DNA of 47,062 nt from Candidatus Ruminococcus intestinipullorum. GTDB taxonomy: Bacteria; Bacillota; Clostridia; Lachnospirales; Lachnospiraceae. The position numbers were made by a program, and so were the translations under genes. The stretch is from the NCBI GenBank assembly GCA_018883985.1, contig JAHLFA010000048.1, forward strand, positions 1 through 47,062, read 5' to 3'. The notes beneath the pieces were generated by a model that saw nothing but the letters and a program-made list of their open reading frames with translations, was not told the origin of the DNA and made no database searches. Below are positions 5,738 to 44,784 of the stretch, piece after piece. Numbering within the stretch: the stretch's first letter is position 1; every line of letters begins with the position of its first letter.

Positions 5738-6693
5738 AATATATGAGAATCTCACTAACAGACCGATGTAATTTAAGGTGCATCTATTGTATGCCAGAGG
5801 AAGAAACAGAGCAAATAGATACAGAGAATGTACTTGAATACGACGAAATTATCAGAGTGTGTAAAATTGCAGCAAAACTTGGAATATCTAAGATAAAATT
5901 GACTGGTGGAGAGCCTCTTGTGAGAAAGGATATAGAAGTTTTAATAAAAAGGCTTAAAAATCTAGAGGGAATCAAACAAGTTACATTGACTACAAATGGA
6001 GTATTGCTAAAAGAAAAAATGCAACAATTATATGAATCAGGTTTAGATGCAGTAAATATTAGTTTAGATACTTTAGACCGAAAGCAGTATGCACAAATTA
6101 CAAAAAGAGATCAGCTATCCAAGGTACTAGAGGGGATAGAATGTGCAATGCAGTATACAGGACTAAAAGTAAAAATAAATTGTGTAGCACTAGCAGGCTG
6201 TAATGAAAAACAGTGGGTTCCCATAGCAGAATTTGCAAAAAATTATCCTATTGATGTAAGATTTATAGAACGAATGCCAATTGGAACAAAGGAGAGCTTC
6301 AATATTGCACTGCAAGAAGAAATTCAAAAGTGCTTGGATAGTGCCTTTGGTTGTTCCCATAAAGAAGAAAACATACAGAGAGGAAATGGTCCAGCAAAAT
6401 ATTGGTCCTATCCAAATTTTCAAGGTAAGATAGGATTTATAAGTGCAATTTCTCATAAATTTTGTGAAGATTGCAATCGAATTCGAATGACAAGTGAGGG
6501 GTATATAAAACCATGTCTGCAATTTTCTGAAGGAATCGATTTGAGAACATTGTTACGAGGTGATGTTGGAGATGATAAAATACAAGAGGCGTTAGAAAAA
6601 GTAATTTATCAAAAACCAAGATGTCACATATTTGAACAAGAGAAGAAAGAAGGGCATTTAGAGAAGCATCAGATGTCTTGGATTGGAGGATAG
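5710..6693 (+). CDS. moaA: GTP 3',8-cyclase MoaA (radical SAM)
   Basis: The 327-aa radical-SAM enzyme rearranges GTP to 3',8-cyclo-GTP, the substrate of MoaC. It has the N-terminal SAM-cluster motif C20-x3-C24-x2-C27, the GGEP motif at 66-69, and the second [4Fe-4S] site C252-x2-C255-x13-C269 that binds GTP. The protein ends in Gly-Gly (326-327), the tail needed for activity in characterised MoaA proteins. It starts inside the end of moaB and ends one base before the MOSC gene, so it is tightly embedded in the operon. Confidence 0.96.
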   Translation: MRDQFGRKIEYMRISLTDRCNLRCIYCMPEEETEQIDTENVLEYDEIIRVCKIAAKLGISKIKLTGGEPLVRKDIEVLIKRLKNLEGIKQVTLTTNGVLLKEKMQQLYESGLDAVNISLDTLDRKQYAQITKRDQLSKVLEGIECAMQYTGLKVKINCVALAGCNEKQWVPIAEFAKNYPIDVRFIERMPIGTKESFNIALQEEIQKCLDSAFGCSHKEENIQRGNGPAKYWSYPNFQGKIGFISAISHKFCEDCNRIRMTSEGYIKPCLQFSEGIDLRTLLRGDVGDDKIQEALEKVIYQKPRCHIFEQEKKEGHLEKHQMSWIGG

Positions 6694-6694
6694 C

Positions 6695-7126
6695 ATGGGA
6701 AAGGTAATTGCAGTTTGCATAAGTCCCGAAAAAGGGACACCAAAGAAAAATGTAGGAAGTGCATTGTTCCAAAAAGAATTTGGATTGGTAGGAGATGCAC
6801 ATGCAGGAAAATGGCATCGACAAGTAAGTTTACTTTCTTTTGATAAAATAGAAGAGTTTCGCAAAAAAGGTGCAGAAGTAGACGATGGAGCTTTTGGAGA
6901 AAATCTTGTTGTAGAAGGATTTGACTTTAAGCAGCTTCCAGTTGGTACAAAGCTTAAATGTAATGATGTCCTTTTAGAAATTACCCAGATTGGAAAAGAA
7001 TGCCATCATGGCTGCAATATTTTCCAAAAGATGGGAGATTGTATTATGCCAAGAGAAGGGGTCTTTGCAAGAGTTCTGCAAGGAGGAAGTATCTCTAGTG
7101 GAGATGAAATGAACATTGTTCAATAG
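6695..7126 (+). CDS. MOSC-domain protein
   Basis: The 143-aa protein is a stand-alone MOSC domain. It shows GLVGDAHAGKWHRQVSLLS, GAFGENLVVEGFD and the conserved-cysteine block GKECHHGC near residue 108. MOSC domains bind molybdenum cofactor or transfer sulfur to it, using the conserved Cys. Cotranscription with moaC-moaB-moaA supports a late cofactor step such as sulfuration, carrying or insertion. The start is ATG 6695, preceded by GGAGGA (6685-6690); an upstream TTG at 6683 lies inside that ribosome site and is unlikely. The moaA stop ends one base before this start. Confidence 0.88.
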   Translation: MGKVIAVCISPEKGTPKKNVGSALFQKEFGLVGDAHAGKWHRQVSLLSFDKIEEFRKKGAEVDDGAFGENLVVEGFDFKQLPVGTKLKCNDVLLEITQIGKECHHGCNIFQKMGDCIMPREGVFARVLQGGSISSGDEMNIVQ

Positions 7127-7144
7127 AAAGGGTGGAGATAAAGC

Positions 7145-8104
7145 ATGAAGTGGAATAAGTTTCGATTAAAAACAACAACACAAGCAGAAGACATTGTAAG
7201 TAGTATGCTGATGGATTTAGGAATTCAAGGGGTAGAAATAGAAGACAAGATTCCTTTAACGCAGGCTGATAAAGAGCAAATGTTTGTAGATATTTTACCA
7301 CAAATACAAGAAGATGATGGGACAGCTTATCTAAGCTTTTACTTAGAAGAAGAGGAAGATAAAGAGCAAATTCTCTCCAAAATTCAGGCAGAATTAGAGG
7401 AAATGAAGTCTTATGTAGAGGTTGGTGAATGCACCATTGAAGAATCCCAAACAGAGGATGTGGATTGGGTAAATAATTGGAAACAGTATTTTCATCAATT
7501 CTATATAGATGATATTTTAATTATTCCATCTTGGGAAGAGGTAAAACCACAGGATAAAGAAAAGTTAGTGATTCATATAGACCCAGGTACAGCCTTTGGA
7601 ACAGGAATGCATGAAACAACACAATTATGTATTCGTCAGATAAGAAAATATACAACCAATAATACAAAAATTTTAGATGTAGGGTGTGGAAGTGGTATTC
7701 TTGGAATGCTTGCACTAAAATTTGGGGCAAAATACTCTGTGGGTACAGATTTAGACCCTTGTGCAATCGAGGCTACGAACGAAAATATGGAAGTGAATGG
7801 CATCCAAAAAAATCAATATGAAGTGATGATTGGAAATATCATTGACGACAAGGAAATACAAGATAAAGTTGGATACGAAGCATACGATATTGTAGTGGCA
7901 AATATTTTAGCAGATGTTTTGGTAGAATTAACACCAGTGATTGTGAATCAGATGAAACCAGGTGGAATTTATATTACAAGTGGTATTATTGATGATAAAG
8001 AAGAAACTGTAGTAAAAGCAGTAGAGAAGGCTGGTTTAGAGGTATTAGAGGTTCATTATCAAGGTGAGTGGGTATCAGTGACAGCCAGAAAAGGAAGGAA
8101 ATAA
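7145..8104 (+). CDS. prmA: Ribosomal protein L11 methyltransferase PrmA
   Basis: The 319-aa SAM-dependent enzyme trimethylates ribosomal protein L11. An N-terminal substrate-recognition domain (about residues 1-65) precedes a class-I Rossmann methyltransferase. Visible motifs are DPGTAFGTGMHETTQLC, ILDVGCGSGILGMLALKFGA (SAM motif I) and VVANILADVL (motif IV, of the N-P/I-L type). Length is normal for Firmicute PrmA. The rsmE gene follows after 4 bp, and the prmA-rsmE pair is conserved in Firmicutes, usually near dnaK/dnaJ, which are not in this window. Confidence 0.95.
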   Translation: MKWNKFRLKTTTQAEDIVSSMLMDLGIQGVEIEDKIPLTQADKEQMFVDILPQIQEDDGTAYLSFYLEEEEDKEQILSKIQAELEEMKSYVEVGECTIEESQTEDVDWVNNWKQYFHQFYIDDILIIPSWEEVKPQDKEKLVIHIDPGTAFGTGMHETTQLCIRQIRKYTTNNTKILDVGCGSGILGMLALKFGAKYSVGTDLDPCAIEATNENMEVNGIQKNQYEVMIGNIIDDKEIQDKVGYEAYDIVVANILADVLVELTPVIVNQMKPGGIYITSGIIDDKEETVVKAVEKAGLEVLEVHYQGEWVSVTARKGRK

Positions 8105-8108
8105 ATAG

Positions 8109-8849
8109 ATGCATCAGTTTTTTACATCTCCATCTAATATAAATAACGGTAAGATTACGATTGAAAACGCAGATATTAATCATTTAAAGAACGTACTGCG
8201 TATGAAACAAGGAGAACGAATTAAGATTAGTGATGGAGTAGGTGGAATATATATATGTTCTATTGATTGTATGCAAGATGGAATGGTTTCTGCAAAAATA
8301 GAAGAAGAATATCACACAGATACAGAGCTGCCTTCTAAAATCTATTTATTTCAAGGACTTCCAAAGGGAGAGAAGATGGAATGGATTATCCAAAAAGCTG
8401 TAGAACTTGGGGTTCATGAAATTATACCAGTGGCTACAAAAAGAGCAGTTGTGAAGTTGGATGATAAGAAGGCAGCGAAGAAAATCATTCGTTGGAATGC
8501 AATAGCAAAAGGGGCAGCACAACAGTCGGGAAGAGGAATCATACCCGAAGTTCATGAAGTGCTGACCTTTGGACAAGCATTAGAATATGCCAAAAATCTA
8601 GATGTAAAATGCATACCCTATGAGCTGGCAGAAGGAATGTCAGAAACAAAAGCGTTTATAGAAGGGCTTGAAGCAGGAAAGAAAATAGGAATATTTATAG
8701 GTCCAGAAGGTGGATTTGAAGAAACGGAAATTCAAGCGGCAAAGGAAGTAGGAATTGTTCCAATTACTTTGGGAAAACGAATTTTAAGAACAGAAACAGC
8801 CGCTGTTACAGTATTATCAATCTTCATGTATCAATTGGAAAGTTTATAA
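8109..8849 (+). CDS. rsmE: 16S rRNA (uracil1498-N3)-methyltransferase RsmE
   Basis: The 246-aa protein is a SPOUT-class methyltransferase for U1498 of 16S rRNA. An N-terminal PUA-like domain (NHLKNVLRMKQGERIKISDG) precedes the knotted domain. The SAM-binding knot shows IGIFIGPEGGFEETEI and LGKRILRTETAAVTVLS, the RsmE signature. It lies 4 bp after prmA and is probably cotranscribed. Length and start are standard. Confidence 0.95.
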   Translation: MHQFFTSPSNINNGKITIENADINHLKNVLRMKQGERIKISDGVGGIYICSIDCMQDGMVSAKIEEEYHTDTELPSKIYLFQGLPKGEKMEWIIQKAVELGVHEIIPVATKRAVVKLDDKKAAKKIIRWNAIAKGAAQQSGRGIIPEVHEVLTFGQALEYAKNLDVKCIPYELAEGMSETKAFIEGLEAGKKIGIFIGPEGGFEETEIQAAKEVGIVPITLGKRILRTETAAVTVLSIFMYQLESL

Positions 8850-8888
8850 CATAAAGTAACAGTAAGAAAGTTGTAAAGGAAGAATAGT

Positions 8889-10046
8889 ATGGAAGTTTAT
8901 TTAGATAATTCAGCCACAACGAAGTGCTATACACAAGTAGGGGATTTGATGTATAAAATCATGTGTCAAGATTATGGAAATCCATCCTCTATGCATCGAA
9001 AAGGTGTTGTGGCAGAACGATATATTAAGGATGCAAAAGAGAATATTGCAAAGATATTAAAAGTGGATGCAAAAGAGATTTTTTTTACATCAGGAGGAAC
9101 AGAAAGCGATAACTTGGCTTTGATTGGAACAGCACGGGCAAATAAAAGAAAAGGTAAGCATTTGATTACAACTTCCATAGAGCATCCAGCAATTTTGAAT
9201 ACGATGAGGTATTTAGAGGAATCAGAAGGATTTAACGTTACGTACCTTCCTGTAGATTCGAAAGGAAGAGTGAAGTTAGAGACTTTAAAAGAGGCACTTA
9301 GCGAGGAAACAATTTTAGTATCGATTATGTATGTCAACAATGAAGTTGGTGCTGTACAGCCAATAGAAGAGGCAGTTCGTTTGGTGAAACAATATAATCC
9401 AGACATTTTATTCCATACAGATGCAGTACAAGGATTTGGAAAGTATAAAATACATCCTAAGAGAGTAGGGATAGATTTATTAACTGCCAGTGGACATAAG
9501 ATTCATGGTCCAAAAGGAACAGGTTTTTTATATGTAGGCGAAAAGGTAAAAATACAACCAATTATTTTTGGCGGTGAGCAGCAGAAAAATATTCGTTCAG
9601 GAACGGAAAATGTTCCAGGTATTGCAGGACTTGGACTTGCTGCCAAAATGATTTATCAAGACTTAGAGATAAAAACAGCCTTAATGAGAGAGCTAAAGGA
9701 ATACTTTTTGAACGGAATTTTACAAATTGAAAATACAACGGTACATGGAGAAACAGACGAAAATAGTGCACCTCATATTATTAGTGTAGGATTTTCAGGA
9801 ATCCGAAGCGAAGTACTTTTACATGCTTTGGAAGAAAAAGGAATTTATGTATCTTCTGGATCAGCATGTGCTTCCAACCATCCAGCAATTAGTGGTGTAT
9901 TAAAAGGAATTGGGGCTGCCAAGGAGTATTTGGATGCAACAATTCGATTTAGTATGTCAGAGTTTACCACAAAAGAAGAAATTGACTATACGTTGGAAAC
10001 ACTATATAATTGTGTACCGATGTTAAGAAGATTTACAAGACGGTAG
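8889..10046 (+). CDS. Cysteine desulfurase (NifS/IscS class V aminotransferase)
   Basis: The 385-aa PLP enzyme releases sulfur from cysteine as an enzyme persulfide. PLP-site residues are recognisable: His99 (SIEHPAI), Asp178 and Gln181 in HTDAVQGFGK, and Lys204 in SGHKIHGPKG. Catalytic Cys327 sits in the loop SSGSACASN, the group I (NifS/IscS) arrangement. The gene lies 30 bp before thiI. The known pairing of a dedicated desulfurase with a rhodanese-less ThiI in Firmicutes (NifZ in Bacillus subtilis) suggests that it feeds sulfur for tRNA 4-thiouridine rather than general Fe-S assembly. Confidence 0.93.
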   Translation: MEVYLDNSATTKCYTQVGDLMYKIMCQDYGNPSSMHRKGVVAERYIKDAKENIAKILKVDAKEIFFTSGGTESDNLALIGTARANKRKGKHLITTSIEHPAILNTMRYLEESEGFNVTYLPVDSKGRVKLETLKEALSEETILVSIMYVNNEVGAVQPIEEAVRLVKQYNPDILFHTDAVQGFGKYKIHPKRVGIDLLTASGHKIHGPKGTGFLYVGEKVKIQPIIFGGEQQKNIRSGTENVPGIAGLGLAAKMIYQDLEIKTALMRELKEYFLNGILQIENTTVHGETDENSAPHIISVGFSGIRSEVLLHALEEKGIYVSSGSACASNHPAISGVLKGIGAAKEYLDATIRFSMSEFTTKEEIDYTLETLYNCVPMLRRFTRR

Positions 10047-10076
10047 TTCAAAAGCGAAGAACAAAGGAGACCAACT

Positions 10077-11258
10077 ATGAAATTTCATTCATTTTTGATT
10101 AAATATGGCGAAATTGGTATTAAGGGAAAGAATCGATATTTATTTGAAGATGCACTGGTTCGTCAAATTCGATTTGCATTGAAAGATGCAGAGGGAGAAT
10201 TTCATGTGCATAAGGCTCAGGGAAGAGTGTATGTGGATTGTGAAGGGGAATATGATTATGAAGAAACAGTAGAATGTTTGAAAACTGTTTTTGGTATTGT
10301 GGGAATTTGCCCTGTTGTTCGACTACAAGATGAAGGAATTGAAAAACTAAAAAAAGATGTAGAAGAATATATAGGAGCTATGTATCCAGAACAAAATCAG
10401 ACCTTTAAAGTAGAGGCGAGAAGAAGTAAAAAATCATATCCTTTAAACTCTATGGAACTAAATTGTGAATTAGGTGGAGTGATTCTGGATGCGTACCCAA
10501 ATATGACGGTAGATGTACATCATCCACAAATTCGGTTAAATGTTGAAGTACGAGAAGAAATTTATCTATATTCTGAAATTATTAAAGGGCCAGGAGGAAT
10601 GCCAGTAGGTACAAATGGAAGTGCAATGCTTCTTCTTTCTGGGGGAATAGACAGTCCAGTTGCAGGATATATGATTGCCAAACGTGGAGTAACATTGGAA
10701 GCTACTTATTTTCATGCACCTCCATACACAAGTGAGCGAGCAAAGGAAAAAGTTGTTGATTTAGCTAGACTGGTTTCCAAATATGCAGGACCAATTAAAT
10801 TAAATGTTGTAAACTTTACAGATATTCAGCTTTATATCTACGAAAAATGTCCACATGATGAATTAACAATTATTATGAGAAGATATATGATGAAAATCGC
10901 AGAACATTTTGCAAAGAAAAGTGGATGTCTAGGATTGATTACAGGAGAAAGTATAGGTCAAGTGGCCAGTCAAACAATGCAGAGTTTAGCAGCTACAAAT
11001 GCTGTTTGTACTTTGCCAGTGTATCGTCCACTTATTGGCTTTGATAAGACGGAGATTGTTGATATTTCAGAAAAGATTAATACGTATGAAACATCCATTC
11101 AACCTTATGAAGATTGTTGTACAATCTTTGTAGCAAAACATCCAGTAACAAAGCCTAATATAGAGAGAATTGAACGCTCAGAGCGTAATTTAGAAGAAAA
11201 AATCGATGAGCTTATGCAGGCGGCAATTGATACAGTGGAAACAATGATGATTTCATAA
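10077..11258 (+). CDS. thiI: tRNA 4-thiouridine synthase ThiI (short form)
   Basis: The 393-aa protein thiolates U8 of tRNA to s4U. It has an N-terminal ferredoxin-like and THUMP region (about residues 1-165), then the ATP-pyrophosphatase domain with the PP-loop SGGIDSP (188-194). GESIGQVASQTMQSL and the catalytic-cysteine region YEDCCTIFVAKHP follow. It ends after this domain, so the C-terminal rhodanese domain of the about 480-aa E. coli enzyme is absent, as is normal in Firmicutes. Sulfur then comes directly from the cysteine desulfurase encoded immediately upstream. Confidence 0.95.
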   Translation: MKFHSFLIKYGEIGIKGKNRYLFEDALVRQIRFALKDAEGEFHVHKAQGRVYVDCEGEYDYEETVECLKTVFGIVGICPVVRLQDEGIEKLKKDVEEYIGAMYPEQNQTFKVEARRSKKSYPLNSMELNCELGGVILDAYPNMTVDVHHPQIRLNVEVREEIYLYSEIIKGPGGMPVGTNGSAMLLLSGGIDSPVAGYMIAKRGVTLEATYFHAPPYTSERAKEKVVDLARLVSKYAGPIKLNVVNFTDIQLYIYEKCPHDELTIIMRRYMMKIAEHFAKKSGCLGLITGESIGQVASQTMQSLAATNAVCTLPVYRPLIGFDKTEIVDISEKINTYETSIQPYEDCCTIFVAKHPVTKPNIERIERSERNLEEKIDELMQAAIDTVETMMIS

Positions 11259-11267
11259 TAAAAGAAA

Positions 11268-11293
11268 AAGGCTGTCTCAAAAGAGGCAGCCTT
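11268..11293. terminator. Bidirectional terminator between thiI and the HPr-like gene
   Basis: GGCTGTCTC (11270-11278) and GAGGCAGCC (11283-11291) pair, with one G-U, around an AAAA loop. On the minus strand the hairpin is followed by TTTTTCTTTT, a strong terminator for the convergent HPr-like gene. The U-tract on the plus strand is weaker. Confidence 0.8.
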
Positions 11294-11314
11294 AAAATTA
11301 AAAATTCAATTTAC

Positions 11315-11548
11315 TTATTTAATAAGATATGCATCTAAAGCAGTTAAAATCTCATCTAAATTGTTATCAGCGTGGATATTTAAATCGATTGGTTTAGAAA
11401 GATCTAAACTAAAAATACCCATAATAGACTTTGCGTCGATTACATATCTTCCAGACACTAAATCAAAATCATTGTCATATTTTGTAATCACATTTACAAA
11501 AGATTTTACTTTGTCAATTGAATTTAAAGAAATCTGTACTGTTTTCAT
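11315..11548 (-). CDS. HPr-like phosphocarrier-fold protein without the catalytic histidine
   Basis: The 77-aa protein aligns with the HPr/Crh family. RYVIDAKSIMGIFSLDLSKPI corresponds to the HPr Ser46 region (usually D-x-KSIMG-x-MSL), and the C-terminus resembles the final HPr helix. The segment where HPr has GLHARPA with the phosphorylated His15 here reads LNSIDKVKSFVN, with no histidine. It therefore cannot act as a PTS phosphocarrier but keeps the regulatory Ser, as Crh does. A role as a CcpA coregulator or HPr-kinase substrate is inferred. It is monocistronic, with its own promoter and terminator and an AGGGAGGG ribosome site. Confidence 0.82.
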   Translation of the reverse strand: MKTVQISLNSIDKVKSFVNVITKYDNDFDLVSGRYVIDAKSIMGIFSLDLSKPIDLNIHADNNLDEILTALDAYLIK

Positions 11549-37784: not shown

Positions 37785-38664
37785 AAAATAACAATCAAGC
37801 AGATTTTGGTATATTTGCGGCCCATTATTTTTATATTGGATTATTCAATTTATAGGACAGTTTATTGGAGAATTTATGGTAGTGCTTCCTCATATGGGAG
37901 AACTGATGGATTATGGTGAAATTACTACATCTATGACAACGGAGCAGATGTGGGAGTTTATGAATCGTAGTATGCAAAAAGTATACGAAATTTTGGTTCA
38001 GTATTCCCTTCCAATCTTAGCATTTGCCACAGTATGTACCCTTCCACTTTCTATTACATTGTTTTGCAAGGATAGAAAGGAAGAGAGCTGGAGTGTAGAA
38101 AATACAAAAGTGACGCCAAAGCTTTGGAAGTACGGACTTGTTGTAGTGTTAGGAATTGTATTTTCTCTTGGTATGAACTGTTTGATTACGATGATTGGTT
38201 TGGCATTTTTTGTTGAATCATTTAGTGGGGTTACCTCCACAATAGAGCCAAACATCCTTATGGAAGTAATATGTGCAGGAGTTTTGATTCCAATAGGGGA
38301 AGAGTTTATGTTTCGAGGTGTATTATTTAAACGTTATCGCAGGAGTAATACCTTTTTGTTAGCGGCAACATTATCTTCTCTTATTTATGGGCTTACACAA
38401 GGTAATATGATTCAATTTGCGTATGCATGTGTTTTTGGAGTATTCCTTTGTTATATCTATGAAAATGTAGGCACATTAAAGAGTACAATACTTTTTCATA
38501 TAACAAGCAATTTATTTGGTGTGATATTGTCATATTCTAGTTTAGGAGGATGGCTCATTCAAGATCCAATTCGTATAGCAGCAGCTATAGTAATTTCAGT
38601 ATTTGTCATATCTTCAATCTATGTGTTTGTTCAAAATATTGAAAATAAAAATAAAGGTGTGTAG
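37777..38664 (+). pseudogene. CPBP-family membrane protein with in-frame stop at codon 5 (possible restart at 37876)
   Basis: An ATG at 37777 overlaps the alaX stop and opens MNKK, then TAA (37789-37791). The same frame continues QSSRFWYICGPLFLYWIIQ, an obvious first membrane helix, into a clean 262-codon frame from ATG 37876, so the natural gene seems to carry one extra stop triplet. The downstream part has CPBP (Abi) motif 1 EEFMFR (142-147 from ATG 37876) and motif 3 FHITSN, but motif 2 reads LIYGLTQGN, with Gln where metal-binding His is usual. ATG 37876 has a GGAG 5 nt upstream and could restart translation of a shortened protein. Related proteins are intramembrane proteases or bacteriocin-immunity factors. 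Confidence 0.7.
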
Positions 38665-38666
38665 GG

Positions 38667-38689
38667 AGATGTCCCAACACATCTTTTTT
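38667..38689 (+). terminator. Terminator after the CPBP gene
   Basis: AGATGT (38667-38672), loop CCCAAC, ACATCT (38679-38684), then an uninterrupted T run to 38689. It separates this unit from the pilus-like operon promoter 30 bp downstream. Confidence 0.75.
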
Positions 38690-38717
38690 CGTTTAGATAT
38701 TTTTAAGAATTTTATCG

Positions 38718-38746
38718 TTGACTTTCTCGTATGAGAACCATATAAT
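38718..38746 (+). promoter_or_regulatory. Strong sigma-A promoter of the Tad/Flp-like operon
   Basis: TTGACT (38718-38723), exactly 17 bp, and a perfect TATAAT (38741-38746). The predicted start near 38753 gives a leader of about 230 nt before the first pilin-like gene. Confidence 0.75.
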
Positions 38747-38752
38747 GGGTGC

Positions 38753-38984
38753 ATAAATCAGAATGTTCTAAAGATTCTAAAGCTGTTTATTACAGTGATT
38801 CATATTGCCGATTCAGGCAGAGTTTTCAGAGATATTTTTATGATAATAGTGGATATGTTTTAAACTTTTTTCAAGTTTAAATAAATGAATTTTTTTTAAG
38901 GAGGTGTTTCCAATATGACCTAAGGAAGAATAGAGAAGTGTATAGTTTGAAAACAGTAGATTATTGAATAATAGGAGGTCAAAA
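38753..38984 (+). other. Long 5' leader of the pilus-like operon, with A/T hairpin and two-codon ORF
   Basis: This gene-free stretch (38665-38984) holds the promoter and leader only. Within the leader, AGAAT/ATTCT and TGCC/GGCA can form small hairpins. TTTAAACTT (38859-38867) pairs with AAGTTTAAA (38873-38881) and is followed by eight T residues (38890-38897), a weak terminator-like layout. Next comes a textbook ribosome site AAGGAGGTG (38898-38906) 8 nt before ATG ACC TAA (38915-38923), a two-codon reading frame. A second site AGGAGG (38973-38978) serves the first real gene. I cannot fit it to c-di-GMP riboswitch consensus. Confidence 0.45.
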
Positions 38985-39146
38985 ATGAAAGCATTTATGG
39001 AAGAGTATGGGGTTATTGTTGTAGCTGCGATTATTATTATGATTATTGTTGTAGCAGCTTCCCCAATTGGAGAAAGTATCAAAGATGGAATTATTGCAGC
39101 AGTAGAGAAGCTGACAACAGCTTTGGGAACAACGAAAGTGGTGTGA
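38985..39146 (+). CDS. Leaderless Flp-like pilin, paralogue 1 (53 aa)
   Basis: The 53-aa protein begins MKAFMEEYGVIVVAAIII: two or three residues, then Glu-Glu-Tyr-Gly and a single hydrophobic helix (about residues 9-27), then a short amphipathic tail SIKDGIIAAVEKLTTALG. Mature Flp pilins have E-Y at positions 5-6 followed directly by such a helix. Here the residues before E-Y are too few for a leader with a prepilin-peptidase site and contain no Gly. ATG 38985 is preceded by AGGAGG; a frame opening at 38964 runs through that ribosome site. It is the first gene of the operon, 1 bp before the ATPase, and probably the most abundant product. Confidence 0.75.
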   Translation: MKAFMEEYGVIVVAAIIIMIIVVAASPIGESIKDGIIAAVEKLTTALGTTKVV

Positions 39147-39147
39147 G

Positions 39148-40191
39148 ATGAAAATCTCAAAAGAAGCATGGGGGTTGAAAGAAGAAAGTTTTGGACCCTT
39201 ACTCCCTCTTGTAAGGGATAGTCAGATTACAGATATAAATTACAATGGAGCTGATGTTTGGGTAGAGCATTTAAAGTATGGAATCTATCGAGTACCCATT
39301 CAGTTAAGTTCAGAGTTTGTACATCAATTCAGTGTTCGAATTTCTAATGTGGTGAGTGAACAAATCAATAAGTTTCACAATGTTCTAGAAGCCGAAACGG
39401 ACACTTTGCGAATCTCAATTATCCATCCTAGTGTGACGAATACTGGGTATTCCATTTCCATAAGAAAAACACCAGCAGTAATGCGACTAAATAGGGAAAT
39501 GATGTTAAAAGATGGATATTGTTCTGAGGAAATTCTCACATTTTTAATTTCTTGTATGAAAGCAAAGCTCAATATGGTGTTTTGTGGAAGACCTGGTGCA
39601 GGCAAGACAGAATTATTAAAATTTCTTACGCAGTTTATCCCCAAAAATGAAAAAGTCATGACAATAGAAGATAATTTGGAAATACATTATAGGGAAATTA
39701 ATCCAGGCTCCAATTGTGTAGAGTTAAAGGTGGATTCTGAATTTTTCACCTATACAAAAGCAATTAAGTCGGCACTTAGACAAAATCCACAGTGGGTACT
39801 TTTGTCGGAAGCAAGGTCTGTCGAGGTGAAATATTTGCTAGAGTGTTTTTCTACAGGATTGCATGGACTGACTACGTTACACACAGATGATACAAGAAAG
39901 ATTCCAGATAGAATTCAAAATATGATGCAGGATACGTATTCGGCATCCAGATTGGAAAATGACATTTATAGCTTTTTGAATGTTGGAATCCTTTTAGGAA
40001 AGAAAGTGAAGGAAGATGGCAAAATACTACGCTTTATCGAACAAATTTGTTTGTTTGATAGAGTGGAAGAAAAAAATGAAAAATATTTAATTGTAGAAAA
40101 TGGAGAAATTGTATCACGAGAGATTTCTCAAAACCTTATTAAAAAATTTAAATGGGCCAATATAGAGTATCCCTTGGGGAGGAGGATGTAA
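39148..40191 (+). CDS. TadA/CpaF-type secretion ATPase (short)
   Basis: The 347-aa ATPase belongs to the type II/IV secretion (PulE/VirB11/TadA) superfamily. Walker A is GRPGAGKT (147-154), the Asp-box region is VMTIEDNLEI, Walker B is WVLLSEAR (216-223), and the His box is GLHGLTTLHT (237-246). The N-terminal domain (DINYNGADVWVEHLKYGIYRVP; later IRKTP) matches CpaF/TadA proteins but is shorter than their usual 400-500 residues. It would energise assembly or secretion by the neighbouring membrane platform. It lies one base after the first pilin-like gene and one base before the platform gene. Confidence 0.88.
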   Translation: MKISKEAWGLKEESFGPLLPLVRDSQITDINYNGADVWVEHLKYGIYRVPIQLSSEFVHQFSVRISNVVSEQINKFHNVLEAETDTLRISIIHPSVTNTGYSISIRKTPAVMRLNREMMLKDGYCSEEILTFLISCMKAKLNMVFCGRPGAGKTELLKFLTQFIPKNEKVMTIEDNLEIHYREINPGSNCVELKVDSEFFTYTKAIKSALRQNPQWVLLSEARSVEVKYLLECFSTGLHGLTTLHTDDTRKIPDRIQNMMQDTYSASRLENDIYSFLNVGILLGKKVKEDGKILRFIEQICLFDRVEEKNEKYLIVENGEIVSREISQNLIKKFKWANIEYPLGRRM

Positions 40192-40192
40192 A

Positions 40193-41665
40193 ATGTTGCG
40201 TTATTGGAATCCGAAACTTTTACATTTGGAAGTAGAACGATATGGATATCATTTTTCAGCAAGTTCTTACATGCGTTATCTTTGTTGTATATATCTTGGT
40301 ATAGCAGGTTTTTCATTTGCTTTTCAACTCAAACTTCCGTACATTCTTTTCGTAATGGCAATCGCATCTATCTTTATACCAAAAGCATTTCTTCTTATGT
40401 ATCAAAATTTGTATGAGGAGAAAAGGTTTGAAGATTTAGTAGCATATATGGAGCAAATTTTATACTCCTTTAAACGAAGAGCAAAGATTTTAACAGCACT
40501 TGAAGATACAAGTTTGCTTTTTCATGAAGAGGAAAGCTCTATTTATAGTGCAATTCAAAGAGCAATCCTACATATTCGTGGAGCACAGACTAATGGGGAT
40601 ATTTATGAAGAAGCATTTGCAATGATAGAGAACGAATATGGATGTAAGCGTCTTTACAAAGTGCATGATTTCCTAAGAAAGGTTGAACGCTTGGGAGGAA
40701 TTTCTGACACTTCAATTGAAATTTTGCTGCAAGATCGTAAGCTTTGGATGGATCGAGTTTATGAAATGCAAAAAGAAAAGAAAAATATAAAAATAAAAAT
40801 TACCATTGGAATTGGATTATCCTTTTTAATTTGTGCTATGAGTGTCTGGATGCTGCCAAAAGAATTTCGTATTACACAAAATGCAATATCTCAGATAATA
40901 ACAGCATTTGTCATTATAGGAAACTTGTTGCTGTGGTATGTGGCACAAAAGAAATTATCAGGAAGTCTAGTTTTATCGGAAGAGGAAATGGATGAGCAGA
41001 CAGCAGAAAAAAATCAAGCGATTTTAAATAAAGAAGACAACAGTCTTCAAAGAAAAGCAAGGGGAATGGCATGTGTCTTTTTACTTCTTACAATTTTCTT
41101 GTTTTGGAAAGTGAATCTATTTTCTGGAATCTTGGGAATGTTAGTAGTTTTTTGGTGTTTATACTACCCTAAGCATAAATATAAGTTGGCAAAAAAATGG
41201 ATGAGAAAGGAGGTGGAGAAGAAATTTCCAGAATGGCTGATGAGTGTATCTTTACAGCTTCAAACAGATAATGTACATGTATCTCTTGAAAAGAGTGTGT
41301 CGGATGCACCACAAATTTTGCAGCCTGAATTGACAGAACTGTTAAGGGGGATTGAACAAAACCCAGGTTCACTACAGCCTTATATAAATTTTATGCGAGG
41401 GATTGATTTACCAGAAATCGTATCGGCAATGAAAATTTTGTATTCCATGGCTGAATTTGGAGCAGAAGAAATGGGGAAACAAATTGATATGCTAGTGCAA
41501 AGGAATGCAATATTGATGGACAAAGCAGAACGATTGCGTCAGGAAGATATTCTTGCAGGAGTGGGATTTTTGGTATTACTCCCTATGGTAACAGGAGTGA
41601 TTAAGATGTTAATAGATTTAGTTTTGGTGATTTTTCATATATTATCACTTGTAAATACAGTATAG
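40193..41665 (+). CDS. Platform protein resembling a TadB-TadC fusion
   Basis: The 490-aa integral membrane protein has hydrophobic segments at about 27-67 (two), 203-221, 232-250, 291-326 (two) and 455-486. Two cytoplasmic lobes (about 75-195 and 335-450) fit the T2SSF-domain pattern; the second, EKKFPEWLMSVSLQLQTDNVHVSLEKSV and following, is clearest. Ordinary Tad systems use two separate proteins, TadB and TadC, each about 300 residues with one lobe. This single chain holds both, joined by a charged linker (about 255-290). A GGGGAGGAGG site overlaps the ATPase stop region. Confidence 0.75.
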   Translation: MLRYWNPKLLHLEVERYGYHFSASSYMRYLCCIYLGIAGFSFAFQLKLPYILFVMAIASIFIPKAFLLMYQNLYEEKRFEDLVAYMEQILYSFKRRAKILTALEDTSLLFHEEESSIYSAIQRAILHIRGAQTNGDIYEEAFAMIENEYGCKRLYKVHDFLRKVERLGGISDTSIEILLQDRKLWMDRVYEMQKEKKNIKIKITIGIGLSFLICAMSVWMLPKEFRITQNAISQIITAFVIIGNLLLWYVAQKKLSGSLVLSEEEMDEQTAEKNQAILNKEDNSLQRKARGMACVFLLLTIFLFWKVNLFSGILGMLVVFWCLYYPKHKYKLAKKWMRKEVEKKFPEWLMSVSLQLQTDNVHVSLEKSVSDAPQILQPELTELLRGIEQNPGSLQPYINFMRGIDLPEIVSAMKILYSMAEFGAEEMGKQIDMLVQRNAILMDKAERLRQEDILAGVGFLVLLPMVTGVIKMLIDLVLVIFHILSLVNTV

Positions 41666-41687
41666 AAGAGAAAGAGAGGGAGAACAT

Positions 41688-41795
41688 ATGAAAGAATTTT
41701 TTGAGGAGTACGGAGCAATTGTAGTCATTTCTATTATCGGATATGCTGTGATGTATGGATTATGGACGATTTTAATTCAAATAAGTGCAAGTTGA
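41688..41795 (+). CDS. Leaderless Flp-like microprotein, paralogue 2 (35 aa)
   Basis: This small gene encodes 35 residues beginning MKEFFEEYGAIVVISIIG. It has the same start as paralogue 1 (M-K-x-F-x-E-E-Y-G) and one hydrophobic helix to about residue 32, and it ends QISAS. A GAGAGGGAGAA ribosome site lies 5-8 nt before the ATG. It is nearly all helix, so it could be a minor pilin or a membrane-embedded accessory peptide. The shared N-terminal motif with three neighbours makes a chance frame unlikely. Confidence 0.7.
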   Translation: MKEFFEEYGAIVVISIIGYAVMYGLWTILIQISAS

Positions 41796-41814
41796 TATAG
41801 AAAGAAGGGGTATC

Positions 41815-41970
41815 TTGAAAGAAATAATCGAGGAGTATGCAGGAGTTATTGCCGCCTGTATTTCGGGAGTAATGTTATTAGGGGTGCTGTATCTATTAAT
41901 AAACGATACAGGGGAACTATTTCACTTATATAAAATGTTTTTTCTTGGGTTAGGAATGCAAGCACAGTAA
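41815..41970 (+). CDS. Leaderless Flp-like protein, paralogue 3 (51 aa, TTG start)
   Basis: From TTG 41815 the product is 51 aa and starts MKEIIEEYAGVIAACISG, with hydrophobic helix to about residue 27 and a second hydrophobic stretch LYKMFFLGLGMQAQ at the end. I chose the TTG because AAGAAGGGG lies 4 nt before it and because it restores the M-K-x3-E-Y start shared with paralogues 1, 2 and 4. An in-frame GTG at 41785 would begin inside paralogue 2 and destroy that alignment. It is followed 10 bp later by paralogue 4. Confidence 0.65.
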   Translation: MKEIIEEYAGVIAACISGVMLLGVLYLLINDTGELFHLYKMFFLGLGMQAQ

Positions 41971-41980
41971 GGAGGATGAT

Positions 41981-42457
41981 ATGAAGGTATGGATAGGCGA
42001 ATATGGAAGAATTATTATTTTAGCAATTTCAGTTTGTAGTATCATACTCTTTCTAGGGGATAGAGGGGAAACAGGTTTTTTAGGGCTATTAGCAAAGGGG
42101 AAACTAAATGCTACATTGAAGTCTGAGGATAATATCGAATTGTTAGAAGAAAACAGGAAAAGAGAGAAACCTATATTGTCGGCAAAAATGAAAAAATTAG
42201 AGCAAGGAAAAGAATATGATTTGTTGGCAGAAGAGGTGTTTGCTGTGAAAGCAGTTTCTCCAGATGGAGAACAGTTAGACGTGCAAGTAGAAGCTCTAAT
42301 AGCTCCATCAGGAACTGATAAAATAGATTGCATTGATGTGAAAAAATTTATTGCAGAAGAGAAAGGTGTGTATTGCATTCGATATTTAGCACAAGAGATT
42401 TATCAAGAAAATTATAAAAATCAAGTGAAGAAAGGGTATTATTTTACGGTAGATTAG
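41981..42457 (+). CDS. Flp-like anchored protein with extracytoplasmic domain, paralogue 4 (158 aa)
   Basis: The 158-aa protein begins MKVWIGEYGRIIILAISV, the same E-Y-G plus hydrophobic-helix start as the three shorter paralogues. It then has a flexible charged segment (about 45-75) and a small, probably beta-rich, domain to the end (YDLLAEEVFAVKAVSPDGEQLDVQVEALIAPS...GVYCIRYLAQE...KKGYYFTVD). With the N-terminus in the membrane, that domain would face outside, as in a minor pilin or tip protein. I know no named family for it. AAGGAGGATGAT precedes the ATG. Confidence 0.7.
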   Translation: MKVWIGEYGRIIILAISVCSIILFLGDRGETGFLGLLAKGKLNATLKSEDNIELLEENRKREKPILSAKMKKLEQGKEYDLLAEEVFAVKAVSPDGEQLDVQVEALIAPSGTDKIDCIDVKKFIAEEKGVYCIRYLAQEIYQENYKNQVKKGYYFTVD

Positions 42458-42468
42458 AAAGGGGTAGC

Positions 42469-42801
42469 ATGAAGGGAGCAATAGAAACAATGGTAGGAGT
42501 TTTTTTGATTGCATTTATGGCAGTACTAGGCACTGCCTATATGATTGCATCGCTAAACACCCAAAAAGCTCAGACCTACCACGCATCCGTGATTACAGAA
42601 ATTGAAGCAAGTGACTATCAAGAAGAGGTGCTAAAGCGTTGTAGAGAAAAAGCACTGGAAAATGGCTATAAAGCATTAGAAATTCAGCCGATAATCAGTG
42701 CAGCAGGAAATAAATATGCAAAGGTAACGTTAGAGTATGCGTATACAATTCCTCTGTTGAATTTGTTTTTAGAGCATCAGATTACAGGATATGCTAGATA
42801 A
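42469..42801 (+). CDS. Single-span pseudopilin-like membrane protein (110 aa)
   Basis: The 110-aa protein starts MKGAIETMVGVFLIAFMAV, with one hydrophobic helix (about 8-28) almost at the N-terminus. An extracytoplasmic part follows that ends VTLEYAYTIPLLNLFLEHQITGYAR. The N-terminal orientation, size and pattern of short basic start, acidic residue and helix recall TadE-like pseudopilins or archaeal-type pilins, and again there is no leader peptide. I do not recognise a named family with confidence. It sits 11 bp after paralogue 4 and 11 bp before the next operon gene. Confidence 0.65.
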   Translation: MKGAIETMVGVFLIAFMAVLGTAYMIASLNTQKAQTYHASVITEIEASDYQEEVLKRCREKALENGYKALEIQPIISAAGNKYAKVTLEYAYTIPLLNLFLEHQITGYAR

Positions 42802-42812
42802 GGAAGGAATGT

Positions 42813-43475
42813 ATGAAACAGGCAGTGATGGGATTTTTTTTGATGATTTGTTTCATTTTTATAGGAGCAATTCTATATACAGCAGAAATGAAAACGACAC
42901 GAAAAAATGAATTAGATACGATTTTGGGAACTGCAATGGAGCAGTCCATGGAACTTTTAACAATCAATTCCTTATATCAAATATCGGATGAAAAAGGAGC
43001 AGAAGAGTTGGTTGTAGATTTTATACAAAATTTTCTTTCTAGGACTACCAGTGACTCTGATTTTCAAATTCGAATTTTAACAGTAGATGAAAAGAGAGGA
43101 TTGTTAGATGTTGAAGTAACAGAAATTTATAAACAGATGATAGGACAAGGCAGGGTTGTATCAAGAAAGACAATCGTATTAGAAGATATTGAGAAAGAAC
43201 AAGGGGGGATGTGTAAAGTTTCTTTTTGGAGAGAAAATGAGGAAGAAAGTAAAAAAATTGTAAAGCAGATTATGGTTCCAAAAGGAAGTTTGCTTTCTGC
43301 ATCCATGCTTCCTAAAATAGAAACACAAGCTGGGGAACAGATATTGGGGTGGAGAGTAATTATAGGAATGGAACATGGAGAGGAAGATACAATTTATACA
43401 GAAGAAACTGTGGGAGAAATTCATATTACAGAGGACATGGAATTTGAAGTTGTTAAAATATTACAGAAATATTAA
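42813..43475 (+). CDS. Single-span membrane protein, last gene of pilus-like operon (220 aa)
   Basis: The 220-aa protein begins MKQAVMGFFLMICFIFIGA with one helix (about 5-24), then a long extracytoplasmic region. Residues 25-125 (KTTRKNELDTILGTAMEQSMELL...IRILTVDEKRGLLDVEVTEIYK) look like a TadE/TadG-type globular part. A second part (about 135-220) ends in EEDTIYTEETVGEIHITEDMEFEVVKILQKY. No family is recognised. Close packing with the upstream genes and a following promoter mark it as the last member of the operon. It may be an assembly or tip component. Confidence 0.6.
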   Translation: MKQAVMGFFLMICFIFIGAILYTAEMKTTRKNELDTILGTAMEQSMELLTINSLYQISDEKGAEELVVDFIQNFLSRTTSDSDFQIRILTVDEKRGLLDVEVTEIYKQMIGQGRVVSRKTIVLEDIEKEQGGMCKVSFWRENEEESKKIVKQIMVPKGSLLSASMLPKIETQAGEQILGWRVIIGMEHGEEDTIYTEETVGEIHITEDMEFEVVKILQKY

Positions 43476-43481
43476 AAGTTG

Positions 43482-43510
43482 TTGCCTTTTCATCACATAT
43501 CTATTATAAT
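43482..43510 (+). promoter_or_regulatory. Promoter of the NlpC/P60 gene
   Basis: TTGCCT (43482-43487), 17 bp, TATAAT (43505-43510), just after the last gene of the pilus-like operon. Confidence 0.65.
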
Positions 43511-43578
43511 GGCATGTGTATAGTAAAACACATATGGGGATATATACATAAATAAATATAAGGATGGGTGAAACTAAT

Positions 43579-44784
43579 ATGAAGATGAAAAGAGTGTGTA
43601 GTGTACTGCTTGCAGCAACATTGCTAGGTTCCATGTCCATTATGCCAGTTCAGGCAGCACCTAATACTGAAGAGCTTCAAAGTCAAAAGAAACAGACTCA
43701 GCAAGAGGTTCAAAGTCTTCAGACACAACTTTCAGATCTTATGACAGATATGAATGTATTGCAGACACAGTTAGTAGAAAACGGTGAACAGATTATACAA
43801 GTACAAGCTCAATTAGAAGAGTCAGAAAAGAAACAAGAGAAGCAAAGAGAAGATATGATGCTACGCATTAAGTATATGTATGAAGAAGGTGCGGGAGCAA
43901 ATTTAGAAAAAGTATTAAAGTCTGGTACAATTCGAGAGATGCTTACACAGGCAGAATATGCACAGAAGATTCATGAATATGACCGAACACAATTAGAAGA
44001 GTATGTTGCTACGGTGAATAAGACAAAAGAGCTGAAGCAGACATTAGAAGAGAAGCAAGCTTCTTTGGAGCAGACAGCAGCAGAATATGAAGTGCAGCAG
44101 ACACAATTAAATACATTAATTACAGAGAAAAGTGAAGAAATCCAGAATTTGGATGAGCAAATTCAAAAAGCAGCAGCTGAGGCGGCAGCAGAAGCAGCAA
44201 GAAGAGCAGAAGAAGAAAGAAGAAAGCAAGAAGAGGCACAAAGAGCAGCACAGCAGAATCTTTCTACAAATACCAATACTACGAACAATAGTAATACTAC
44301 AAATACTACAGGGAATACAGAAAATACAGGAGGAGGTTCCCAAGAACAGACTCCTGAGGAGCCAAGTACACCAACGACTCCAACACCACAAGCCCCACAG
44401 ACTCCAACAGTTTCTGAACCTTCAAGTAATAGTGGCAATGCAGCATCCATTCGTCAAACAATTGTAAATGCAGCATGGTCACAGATTGGCGTACCATACG
44501 TATGGGGAGGGAATAGCCCAGGAGTTGGACTCGATTGTTCAGGGTTGACACAGTATGCATATAGGACGGCAGGACTTTCTATTCCTCGTACAGATATTAC
44601 ACAGTTAAACGCTGGAAGAATTACAAGCAATCCTCAGCCAGGAGATATTTGCTGGACACCAGGTCATGTAGCAATTTATATTGGGAATGGACAGATGATT
44701 GAAGCACAGCAAACAGGCGTACCAATTTGTGTAAGTTCCGTACGTGCTACATATTATGTAACATTTGAGGGAGTGTTGTATTAA
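43579..44784 (+). CDS. Secreted NlpC/P60 peptidoglycan endopeptidase with coiled coil
   Basis: The 401-aa protein has a Sec signal peptide (basic start, hydrophobic core, AQAA-type cleavage after about residue 26). A long Gln/Glu-rich coiled coil (about 30-225) resembles the CwlO/PcsB regulatory domain. A linker rich in Asn/Thr and then Pro/Thr (about 228-285) leads to a C-terminal NlpC/P60 domain with catalytic Cys320 (GLDCSG) and His363 (GHVAIYIG). Such enzymes cut D-Glu/DL-endopeptide bonds and are controlled through the coiled coil, typically by FtsEX. The frame opens at 43564, but ATG 43579 has AAGGATGGGTG upstream and starts the signal peptide. Confidence 0.92.
   Translation: MKMKRVCSVLLAATLLGSMSIMPVQAAPNTEELQSQKKQTQQEVQSLQTQLSDLMTDMNVLQTQLVENGEQIIQVQAQLEESEKKQEKQREDMMLRIKYMYEEGAGANLEKVLKSGTIREMLTQAEYAQKIHEYDRTQLEEYVATVNKTKELKQTLEEKQASLEQTAAEYEVQQTQLNTLITEKSEEIQNLDEQIQKAAAEAAAEAARRAEEERRKQEEAQRAAQQNLSTNTNTTNNSNTTNTTGNTENTGGGSQEQTPEEPSTPTTPTPQAPQTPTVSEPSSNSGNAASIRQTIVNAAWSQIGVPYVWGGNSPGVGLDCSGLTQYAYRTAGLSIPRTDITQLNAGRITSNPQPGDICWTPGHVAIYIGNGQMIEAQQTGVPICVSSVRATYYVTFEGVLY

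Follow-up and report, generated by a model that had tools for sequence, protein, structure and literature searches.

A Tad/Flp-like operon of Lachnospiraceae, related to a module of pLS20-type conjugative plasmids, encodes pilin-like subunits with no recognisable class III leader

Introduction

Prepilin peptidase is one of four core components that are described as universally conserved in type IV filaments (PMC10790768). Is that step needed wherever pilin-like proteins are assembled? The question is raised by a 47,062-nucleotide stretch of Candidatus Ruminococcus intestinipullorum DNA (contig JAHLFA010000048.1 of assembly GCA_018883985.1; hereafter the window), which carries a compact operon, genes A to H at 38985-43475, with the look of a minimal Tad/Flp pilus locus. 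At a probability of about 0.55, we read the operon as a self-contained assembly machine of the type IV filament superfamily, one that would make a thin adhesive pilus from subunits lacking a canonical leader.

Gene content of the operon

All eight open reading frames (ORFs) lie on the forward strand, with gaps that are short or absent. Gene A (38985..39146), with AGGAGG just 5' of it, encodes a 53-residue Flp-like protein (MKAFMEEYGVIVVAA...), presumed to be the main subunit. It is followed by the genes for a short assembly ATPase of the TadA/VirB11 type (B, 39148..40191, 347 residues) and a one-piece, two-domain platform protein (C, 40193..41665, 490 residues). Two more Flp-like proteins, taken to be minor subunits, come next: D (41688..41795) has 35 residues and begins MKEFFEEYG, and E (41815..41970) has 51 residues, a TTG start and the beginning MKEIIEEYAG. 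The last three genes encode the larger minor subunits, namely F (41981..42457, 158 residues), a candidate tip protein in which a Flp-like N-terminus precedes a fast-evolving C-terminal part, and the single-span proteins G (42469..42801, 110 residues) and H (42813..43475, 220 residues). A, D, E and F begin alike, with M-K-x-hydrophobic-hydrophobic-x-E-Y-[GA]; G and H start differently. All parts named in a preliminary description of this DNA (a short ATPase, a one-piece platform, four Flp-like N-termini and two other single-span proteins) were found again among these ORFs, and the same set recurs in relatives. That description had also reported TadV, secretin, CpaD and TadE as unrecognisable at the locus, and our scans agree. 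Against Pfam and NCBIfam, the TadV, TadZ, secretin and CpaD families were not reported for any of the eight proteins at E ≤ 1; Pfam TadE had no match in F, G, H or their relatives; and the window's A and C to H reached the cut-off of no curated model.

ATPase B matches Pfam T2SSE at 5.7e-22, above the Pfam cut-off. It also matches the TadA model TIGR03819 (8.9e-26) and VirB11 (1.9e-31), both far below the model cut-offs, and scores 58 bits with the ComGA model, for which the cut-off is 300. Among its relatives in the PDB are CpaF (8rkd, 7.1e-27) and VirB11 structures. GKTE and E-x-R are invariant across 21 ATPase sequences. In a tree, the new-type sequences lie closer to conventional TadA than to a PilB/PilT-like set, yet form a separate, long-stemmed clade. 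A further T2SSE ATPase of the same genome (G000:C38:22659-23465) is placed by the trees with the set read as PilT-like, and with neither TadA type.

Platform C has Pfam T2SSF matches in 5 of 38 family members (best 8.9e-5). The cluster appears to combine a TadA-type ATPase, a platform and pilin-like subunits, the gene content of the type IV filament superfamily, with the platform assigned mostly through its plasmid relatives together with the weak T2SSF matches.

Recurrence in the family

A search with the ATPase at a self-chosen threshold of E ≤ 1e-30 found matches of that strength in 51 of 397 sampled family genomes, the host's own included, which makes the operon fairly common in the family as sampled. 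In the host's genus, a platform search recovered it from 3 of 49 genomes (again counting its own), and a platform profile run on a class-wide sample of 391 genomes found four, of which two lie outside the family. Relatives with the same gene set have ATPases 36-81% identical to that of the window. A scan of named genomes, in which 419 candidates encoded some relative, gave at least 80 loci, with carriers including Faecalicatena contorta NLAE-zl-C134, Lactonifactor longoviformis DSM 17459, Lachnobacterium bovis DSM 14045, Roseburia hominis An869, Roseburia porci and [Clostridium] fimetarium, the last with two loci.

Removal of near-duplicates, by ATPase similarity only, left 111 unique loci, of which 96 had enough flanking sequence; the relatives' genes were called with a simple script, and the sampled genomes may overlap the named set. 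Among the 96 loci, an A-like gene lies 5' in 85, C is present in 93, at least one tiny 3' subunit in 89, F in 86, G in 95 and H in 91. Every gene class occurs in 69 of them. With p standing for a tiny Flp-like gene, the commonest orders are A-B-C-G-p-p-F-H (34 loci) and A-B-C-p-p-F-G-H (15 loci), the latter being the order of the window. This recurrence of one gene set indicates that the operon is more than a chance assemblage.

One same-genus genome (G001, locus L267) has the site without the operon: its genes for argS, an alaX-like protein, a CAAX-protease-like protein, NlpC/P60 and rpsB follow one another in order. The other five stretches compared contain no ATPase or platform, and none of them spans both flanks of the site. 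From the empty site and the distribution, the operon is therefore best regarded as a patchily held unit.

Kinship with pLS20-type plasmids

A tblastn search of plasmids with B returned 138 records, including 48 from Bacillus, 45 from Listeria and 27 from Enterococcus, and 93 of the records are typed as conjugative. Among the matches listed, the plasmid ATPases are 26-31% identical to B. Nine of the 138 records were compared, eight entering the profiles in part and L278 only the tree; the label 'pLS20-type' rests on the pLS20_p028-family name, seen in three plasmids. In seven of the nine (the outliers being L278 and L281), a gene for a protein of ~125-140 residues comes before the ATPase gene, and after it come two genes for ~240-280 residues, one for ~115-120 residues and one or more for ~44-51 residues. 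A thioester, SpaA-like, isopeptide or MucBP protein is annotated 5' of the ATPase in six of the nine; VirD4 lies in the stretch shown of four records, and VirB4 follows in one record read whole.

In an ATPase tree with the new-type sequences thinned to 24, the chromosomal new type and the plasmid type form one clade (100/98), each on one side of the branch and both apart from conventional TadA and the PilB/PilT-like set; long branches meet, as the program warned, and the outer order is unsure. For the platform, the profile of C matched the two plasmid platform proteins joined together at 98.1% (E 1.4e-13); its N-terminal half matched the first (95.5%, 1.5e-8) and its C-terminal half the second (95.5%, 1.4e-8), so that the pair is found in order. 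G likewise matches the ~120-residue plasmid protein (86.7%, E 4.3e-6), and H weakly matches a plasmid protein (62%, E 7.6e-5). The cleavage motif discussed below occurs in none of 31 plasmid tiny single-span and G/H-like proteins. By these comparisons, a module of pLS20-type conjugative plasmids is the closest relative found, with the chromosomal ATPases placed as sister to, and not nested in, the plasmid clade.

On the plasmids, the ATPase carries the annotation CpaF/VirB11. It is named virB11 and counted as a component of the type IV secretion system (T4SS; PMC11730352), and Gram-positive conjugation is described as working without a pilus (PMC11730352, PMC8014075). In what could be consulted of the open-licence literature, with subscription papers outside the scope, we found no description of the plasmid module as Tad-like. 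Homologues belonging to a known competence or secretion system, which had been named as a possible refutation, did not turn up: the relatives found are those of the conjugative plasmids.

Three single records may be mentioned. The plasmid counterpart of G in L275 (10698-11060) matches Pfam DUF4320 at 5.8e-4, with 20.4 bits against a cut-off of 25. In L278 (Lactococcus cremoris pJM1A, 6356-11343), an ATPase gene is followed by two genes for ~280-320 residues and one for a BspA-family leucine-rich repeat (LRR) surface protein, which recalls the LRR on two F subunits described below. Phage records gave two platform matches, both on unannotated contigs and not counted as phage genes; one of these, L276 (MT835474.1), is an 83-kb record from human faeces, unverified and titled 'Bacteriophage sp.', which at 7023-10473 has the platform, an ATPase-like ORF and two near-identical Flp-like ORFs of 73-74 residues.

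The N-termini of the subunits

The published prepilin motif is [GAS]-x4-[DE] followed by uncharged residues, and Flp proteins are marked by Glu at +5 and Tyr at +6 of the mature form (PMC3244431). This class III cleavage motif occurs in none of the window's six subunits. Across the relatives it was seen in 14 of 554 subunits, at position 9 in four, which by class amounts to 13 of 269 for A/D/E, 1 of 89 for F, 0 of 105 for G and 0 of 91 for H; small ORFs with a weak Shine-Dalgarno sequence had been dropped before these counts and before the profiles were made. The same motif was recovered in 24 of 24 aligned conventional Flp1 proteins and in 25 of 25 Flp_Fap proteins in the Pfam-match frame.

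In 244 of 360 small ORFs, reading 5' from the chosen start reaches a stop before any other in-frame start, and 17 have an in-frame start at least five codons 5' with a good Shine-Dalgarno sequence, in a test that is partly circular, as starts were chosen by homology and Shine-Dalgarno sequence.

In an N-terminal profile of 240 clusters, position 7 is E/D/Q in 197 and position 8 is Y/F/W/H in 214. Were cleavage to follow position 9, the +5 residue (position 14) would be acidic in 10 of the 240 clusters, and the +1 residue would be charged or His in 84 and proline in eight. The 11 main subunits most like that of the window match Flp_Fap (93%, E 2.9e-7) with their EYG on the mature E5-Y6-G7, against 2.4% for Flp1. 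Charges at positions 2 and 6 are paired (r = -0.23; 0 of 2000 permutations); this was one of ten pairs tried, and one other gave p 0.0055. The pairing may reflect a helix that runs from the N-terminus, although the clusters are related and we give it little weight.

As judged from the motif, then, the canonical class III leader is absent. That the subunits are leaderless altogether, as the preliminary description had it, is supported but not proven: the motif counts and their controls speak for it, and the conserved Gly9 leaves room for an atypical leader.

A separate conventional Tad locus and peptidases elsewhere

The assembly, in which the window belongs to contig C34, totals 2.14 Mb and is 83.5% complete. 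On its contig C14 there is a Tad locus of the conventional monoderm type, with a 413-residue T2SSE ATPase (5.1e-59), two T2SSF-type proteins (3.9e-7, and 1.9e-4, which is below the cut-off), a Flp1_like pilin (1.6e-19) whose 24-residue leader ends in ETG before LSVVE, a DUF5702 protein, an A24 peptidase (1.5e-8), a TadE-family protein (6.7e-8) and a putative TadZ, identified by eye and without a Pfam match. Profiles of F, G and H reached at best 21% in hhalign with three single C14 proteins (the TadE-family, DUF5702 and a 265-residue protein). A complete conventional locus with a signal-cleaved Flp using ATPase B had been named beforehand as evidence against an independent system. Such a locus with a leader-bearing Flp does exist, but it has its own ATPase, and because of this the operon is no fragment of it. 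The operon is a second system, distinct from the conventional one.

A24 peptidases are encoded at three places in this genome, all outside the operon locus, including one within a type IVa-like locus on contig C71 (read by eye). All 51 operon hosts tested encode A24; these comprised 49 from the family sample plus G011 and G018, with G124 and G354 omitted for partial or stop-bearing matches. In these hosts A24 lies off the operon contig, except in five few-contig genomes where it is at least 0.9 Mb away (by eye; draft contigs give no distances). A conventional Flp1 match at E ≤ 0.001 was present in 36 of 36 operon hosts tested; the Flp1 loci returned numbered 30, with a readable leader in 28 and a truncated start in two, and 24 of the 28 were aligned to serve as the controls above.

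The co-occurrence of A24 was tried as a test for cleavage and discarded: 199 of 200 sampled family genomes encode A24, operon carriers or not. Its presence decides nothing on cleavage because it is near-universal in the family. By the same token, the argument that a missing peptidase points to leaderless subunits is not supported, since the gene is missing at the locus only.

Three observations on these peptidase genes are recorded here. An A24 gene of locus L004 (G000:C77, 8094-8552), considered as a dedicated peptidase and set aside, has no pilus genes that we noticed around it in the stretch read. In the single-contig host G361, the sole A24 match and a weak (2.2e-4) match to conventional Flp1 are 3.3 kb apart. 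Hosts with two A24 genes ~7 kb apart on a conventional-Flp1 contig include G128:C11, G222:C125 and G390:C24.

Minor subunits and a possible role in adhesion

The F profile matches that of the main subunit at 95.9% over 28 residues, and F is the fastest-evolving protein of the set: mean column identity is 12% for F, 29% for G and H, 38% for the platform and 49% for the ATPase. Among 32 F members, Pfam domains comprise Filamin (3 members), LRR_5 (BspA LRR; 2, best 1e-5), Gp10_C (1, 1.9e-18), a surface Ig-like domain (1) and two PKD models (1 each). Among 31 H members, the Listeria-Bacteroides repeat Flg_new is found C-terminally in 12 (best 5e-8) and is absent from the window's H, and DUF5411 is found in eight (best 7.7e-5). 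G has no Pfam family common to two members.

The variable outer parts of F and H have the look that would be expected of an exposed binding tip. In Kil/Tad pili, a main Flp and two Flp-like adapters are described together with variable, interchangeable tip complexes (PMC12075869). Some relatives thus have surface-type domains on these two minor subunits, and adhesion or cell contact is our best guess for the function of the system. With no substrate or conjugation gene noticed beside the operon, we rate secretion or DNA transfer as less probable.

Proposed mechanism and alternative explanations

In our model, ATPase B would drive the two-domain platform C, which would draw short single-span subunits from the membrane into a thin fibre. 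A would be the main subunit, D and E would act as Flp-like adapters, and F, G and H could form a tip or surface complex whose host-variable C-terminal parts bind a surface or another cell. The subunits would be made without a canonical class III leader and most likely keep their Met-Lys start; if they are uncleaved, Glu7-Tyr8 would take the place of Glu5-Tyr6 in mature Flp. The system is sister to the pLS20-type plasmid module.

Several observations weigh against this model. T2SSF was found in one of ten platform proteins scanned singly, and there below the cut-off; C reached 3% in hhalign with Lachnospiraceae TadC (8% for its C-terminal half); A and the tiny plasmid subunits do not align (7.7%); and F domain matches occur in at most 10 of 32 members and not in the window's F, several other single matches being plainly chance. 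The remaining points concern the leader, where a distinct possibility is that the nine residues MKxxxEEYG are themselves a leader. An A24 peptidase (TadV or PilD) from another locus would then cut after Gly9, and the result would be a Tad-like pilus of odd but cleaved pilins whose mature subunits lack Glu5. Position 9 is G/A/S in 223 of the 240 clusters, residues 1-9 carry several charges that suit a leader better than a filament core, and of the 28 conventional Flp1 leaders that could be read in these hosts, 13 end in EED[GA], with the last residue Gly9-like. When all 69 main subunits are compared in hhalign, Flp1 (84%, EEYG on its leader) does slightly better than Flp_Fap (80%, mature register), and the 57 main subunits unlike that of the window give 43% with Flp1 and 56% with Flp_Fap in short alignments that back neither register well. 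Four subunits have the full motif at Gly9, A24 is encoded in every host tested, and MSH loci, likewise without a peptidase gene, may borrow one (PMC6668835). Against cleavage after Gly9 stand the rarity of an acidic +5 residue, the charged, His or proline residues at +1, the mature register found for the window-like subunits, the uninformative presence of A24, and the lack of a Gly at the matching place in many G proteins, with position 7 the most frequent Gly of H.

Other explanations reach beyond the leader. A pseudopilus confined to the envelope, powering the secretion of a protein as in type II secretion, would suit the very short subunits, and the host family is monoderm-type, so that no long fibre would be required; we think it unlikely, given that no recurring substrate-like neighbour gene was noticed by eye in the relatives' loci and that some F and H carry domains of binding types. 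Still less probable is a mating apparatus, in which the operon would be a conjugation contact module that continues to serve gene transfer. The sister relationship of the ATPases, the homology of the platform and G to plasmid proteins, and the 93 of 138 ATPase-bearing plasmid records typed as conjugative speak for it, but the Pfam-identified neighbours in the window are no conjugation genes, and inspection of 42 relatives' loci by eye, with no profile search, showed no ORF resembling VirB4, VirD4 or a relaxase. That the small ORFs are merely pilin-like, through chance or decay, can practically be dismissed: D and E are so short that each would be doubtful singly, yet 96 loci show the same classes in two dominant gene orders, and the catalytic residues are invariant in 21 diverse ATPases.

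Comparison with known systems

With the pLS20-type module, the operon has in common the ATPase clade, the platform homology, a homologous G, a weakly similar H and small proteins without the cleavage motif. The plasmids differ in having two platform genes and, mostly, a separate gene for a large adhesin; VirD4 and, in one record, VirB4 follow, and the tiny plasmid proteins lack the EYG motif. Like the conventional Tad/Flp pilus (type IVc pilus, T4cP, as on C14), the operon has a TadA-type ATPase, one main subunit of ~50 residues and further single-span subunits, together with a platform that weakly resembles the T2SSF kind. It differs from it in lacking a canonical class III leader and any A24 or TadE-family protein in the locus, in its one-piece platform and in its separate ATPase clade. 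Likened by description only, it would work in the manner of the Kil/Tad pilus of Myxococcus outlined above, in which, however, the tip pilins all have predicted prepilin sites (PMC12075869). The Com pilus (type IVd pilus, T4dP) also serves a monoderm with minimal pilins, one ATPase and one platform, but its minor pilins are cleaved by ComC (PMC10790768); the window's subunits are without the motif, and B falls far short of the ComGA cut-off.

A bolder proposal, which we hold to be rather doubtful, is a type IV filament lineage that assembles near-mature pilins without a prepilin peptidase step, both on Lachnospiraceae chromosomes and in pLS20-type plasmids; on the plasmids, it would amount to a mating pilus that has gone unrecognised in Gram-positive conjugation. 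A subunit family without a recognisable cleavage site makes the universality of prepilin peptidase testable in cultured gut commensals, and the pLS20-type link offers a concrete candidate for how Gram-positive conjugation brings cells together.

Surroundings of the operon

The preliminary description had given the operon its own strong promoter. A promoter-like site at 38718-38746 does match the sigma-70 consensus at 11 of 12 positions; however, promoter-like matches in 38600-43700 are as many as in shuffled sequence (21 vs 20.9 ± 5.2), and the hexamers are not kept when two same-genus operons are aligned with the site, in a three-way alignment that is loose over this AT-rich stretch. In the 240 bases between this site and A, an Rfam search covering nine sources found no riboswitch above the gathering threshold (one tRNA matched elsewhere).

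Genes for arginyl-tRNA synthetase, an alanyl-tRNA-synthetase-like editing protein and a CAAX-protease-like protein lie 5' of the operon, and genes for NlpC/P60, a glyoxalase-like protein and ribosomal protein S2 lie 3'. The NlpC/P60 gene (43564-44784) was considered as a part of the system and rejected, as its homologue is present in 57 of 58 same-genus genomes, whether or not they carry the operon, and the operon in 3 of 49. The CAAX-protease-like membrane protein directly 5' of the operon (37876-38664) is Rce1-like (7.6e-18). In an Enterococcus faecium plasmid, too, a CPBP-type protease (L274, 1625-2068) is annotated 5' of the related module.

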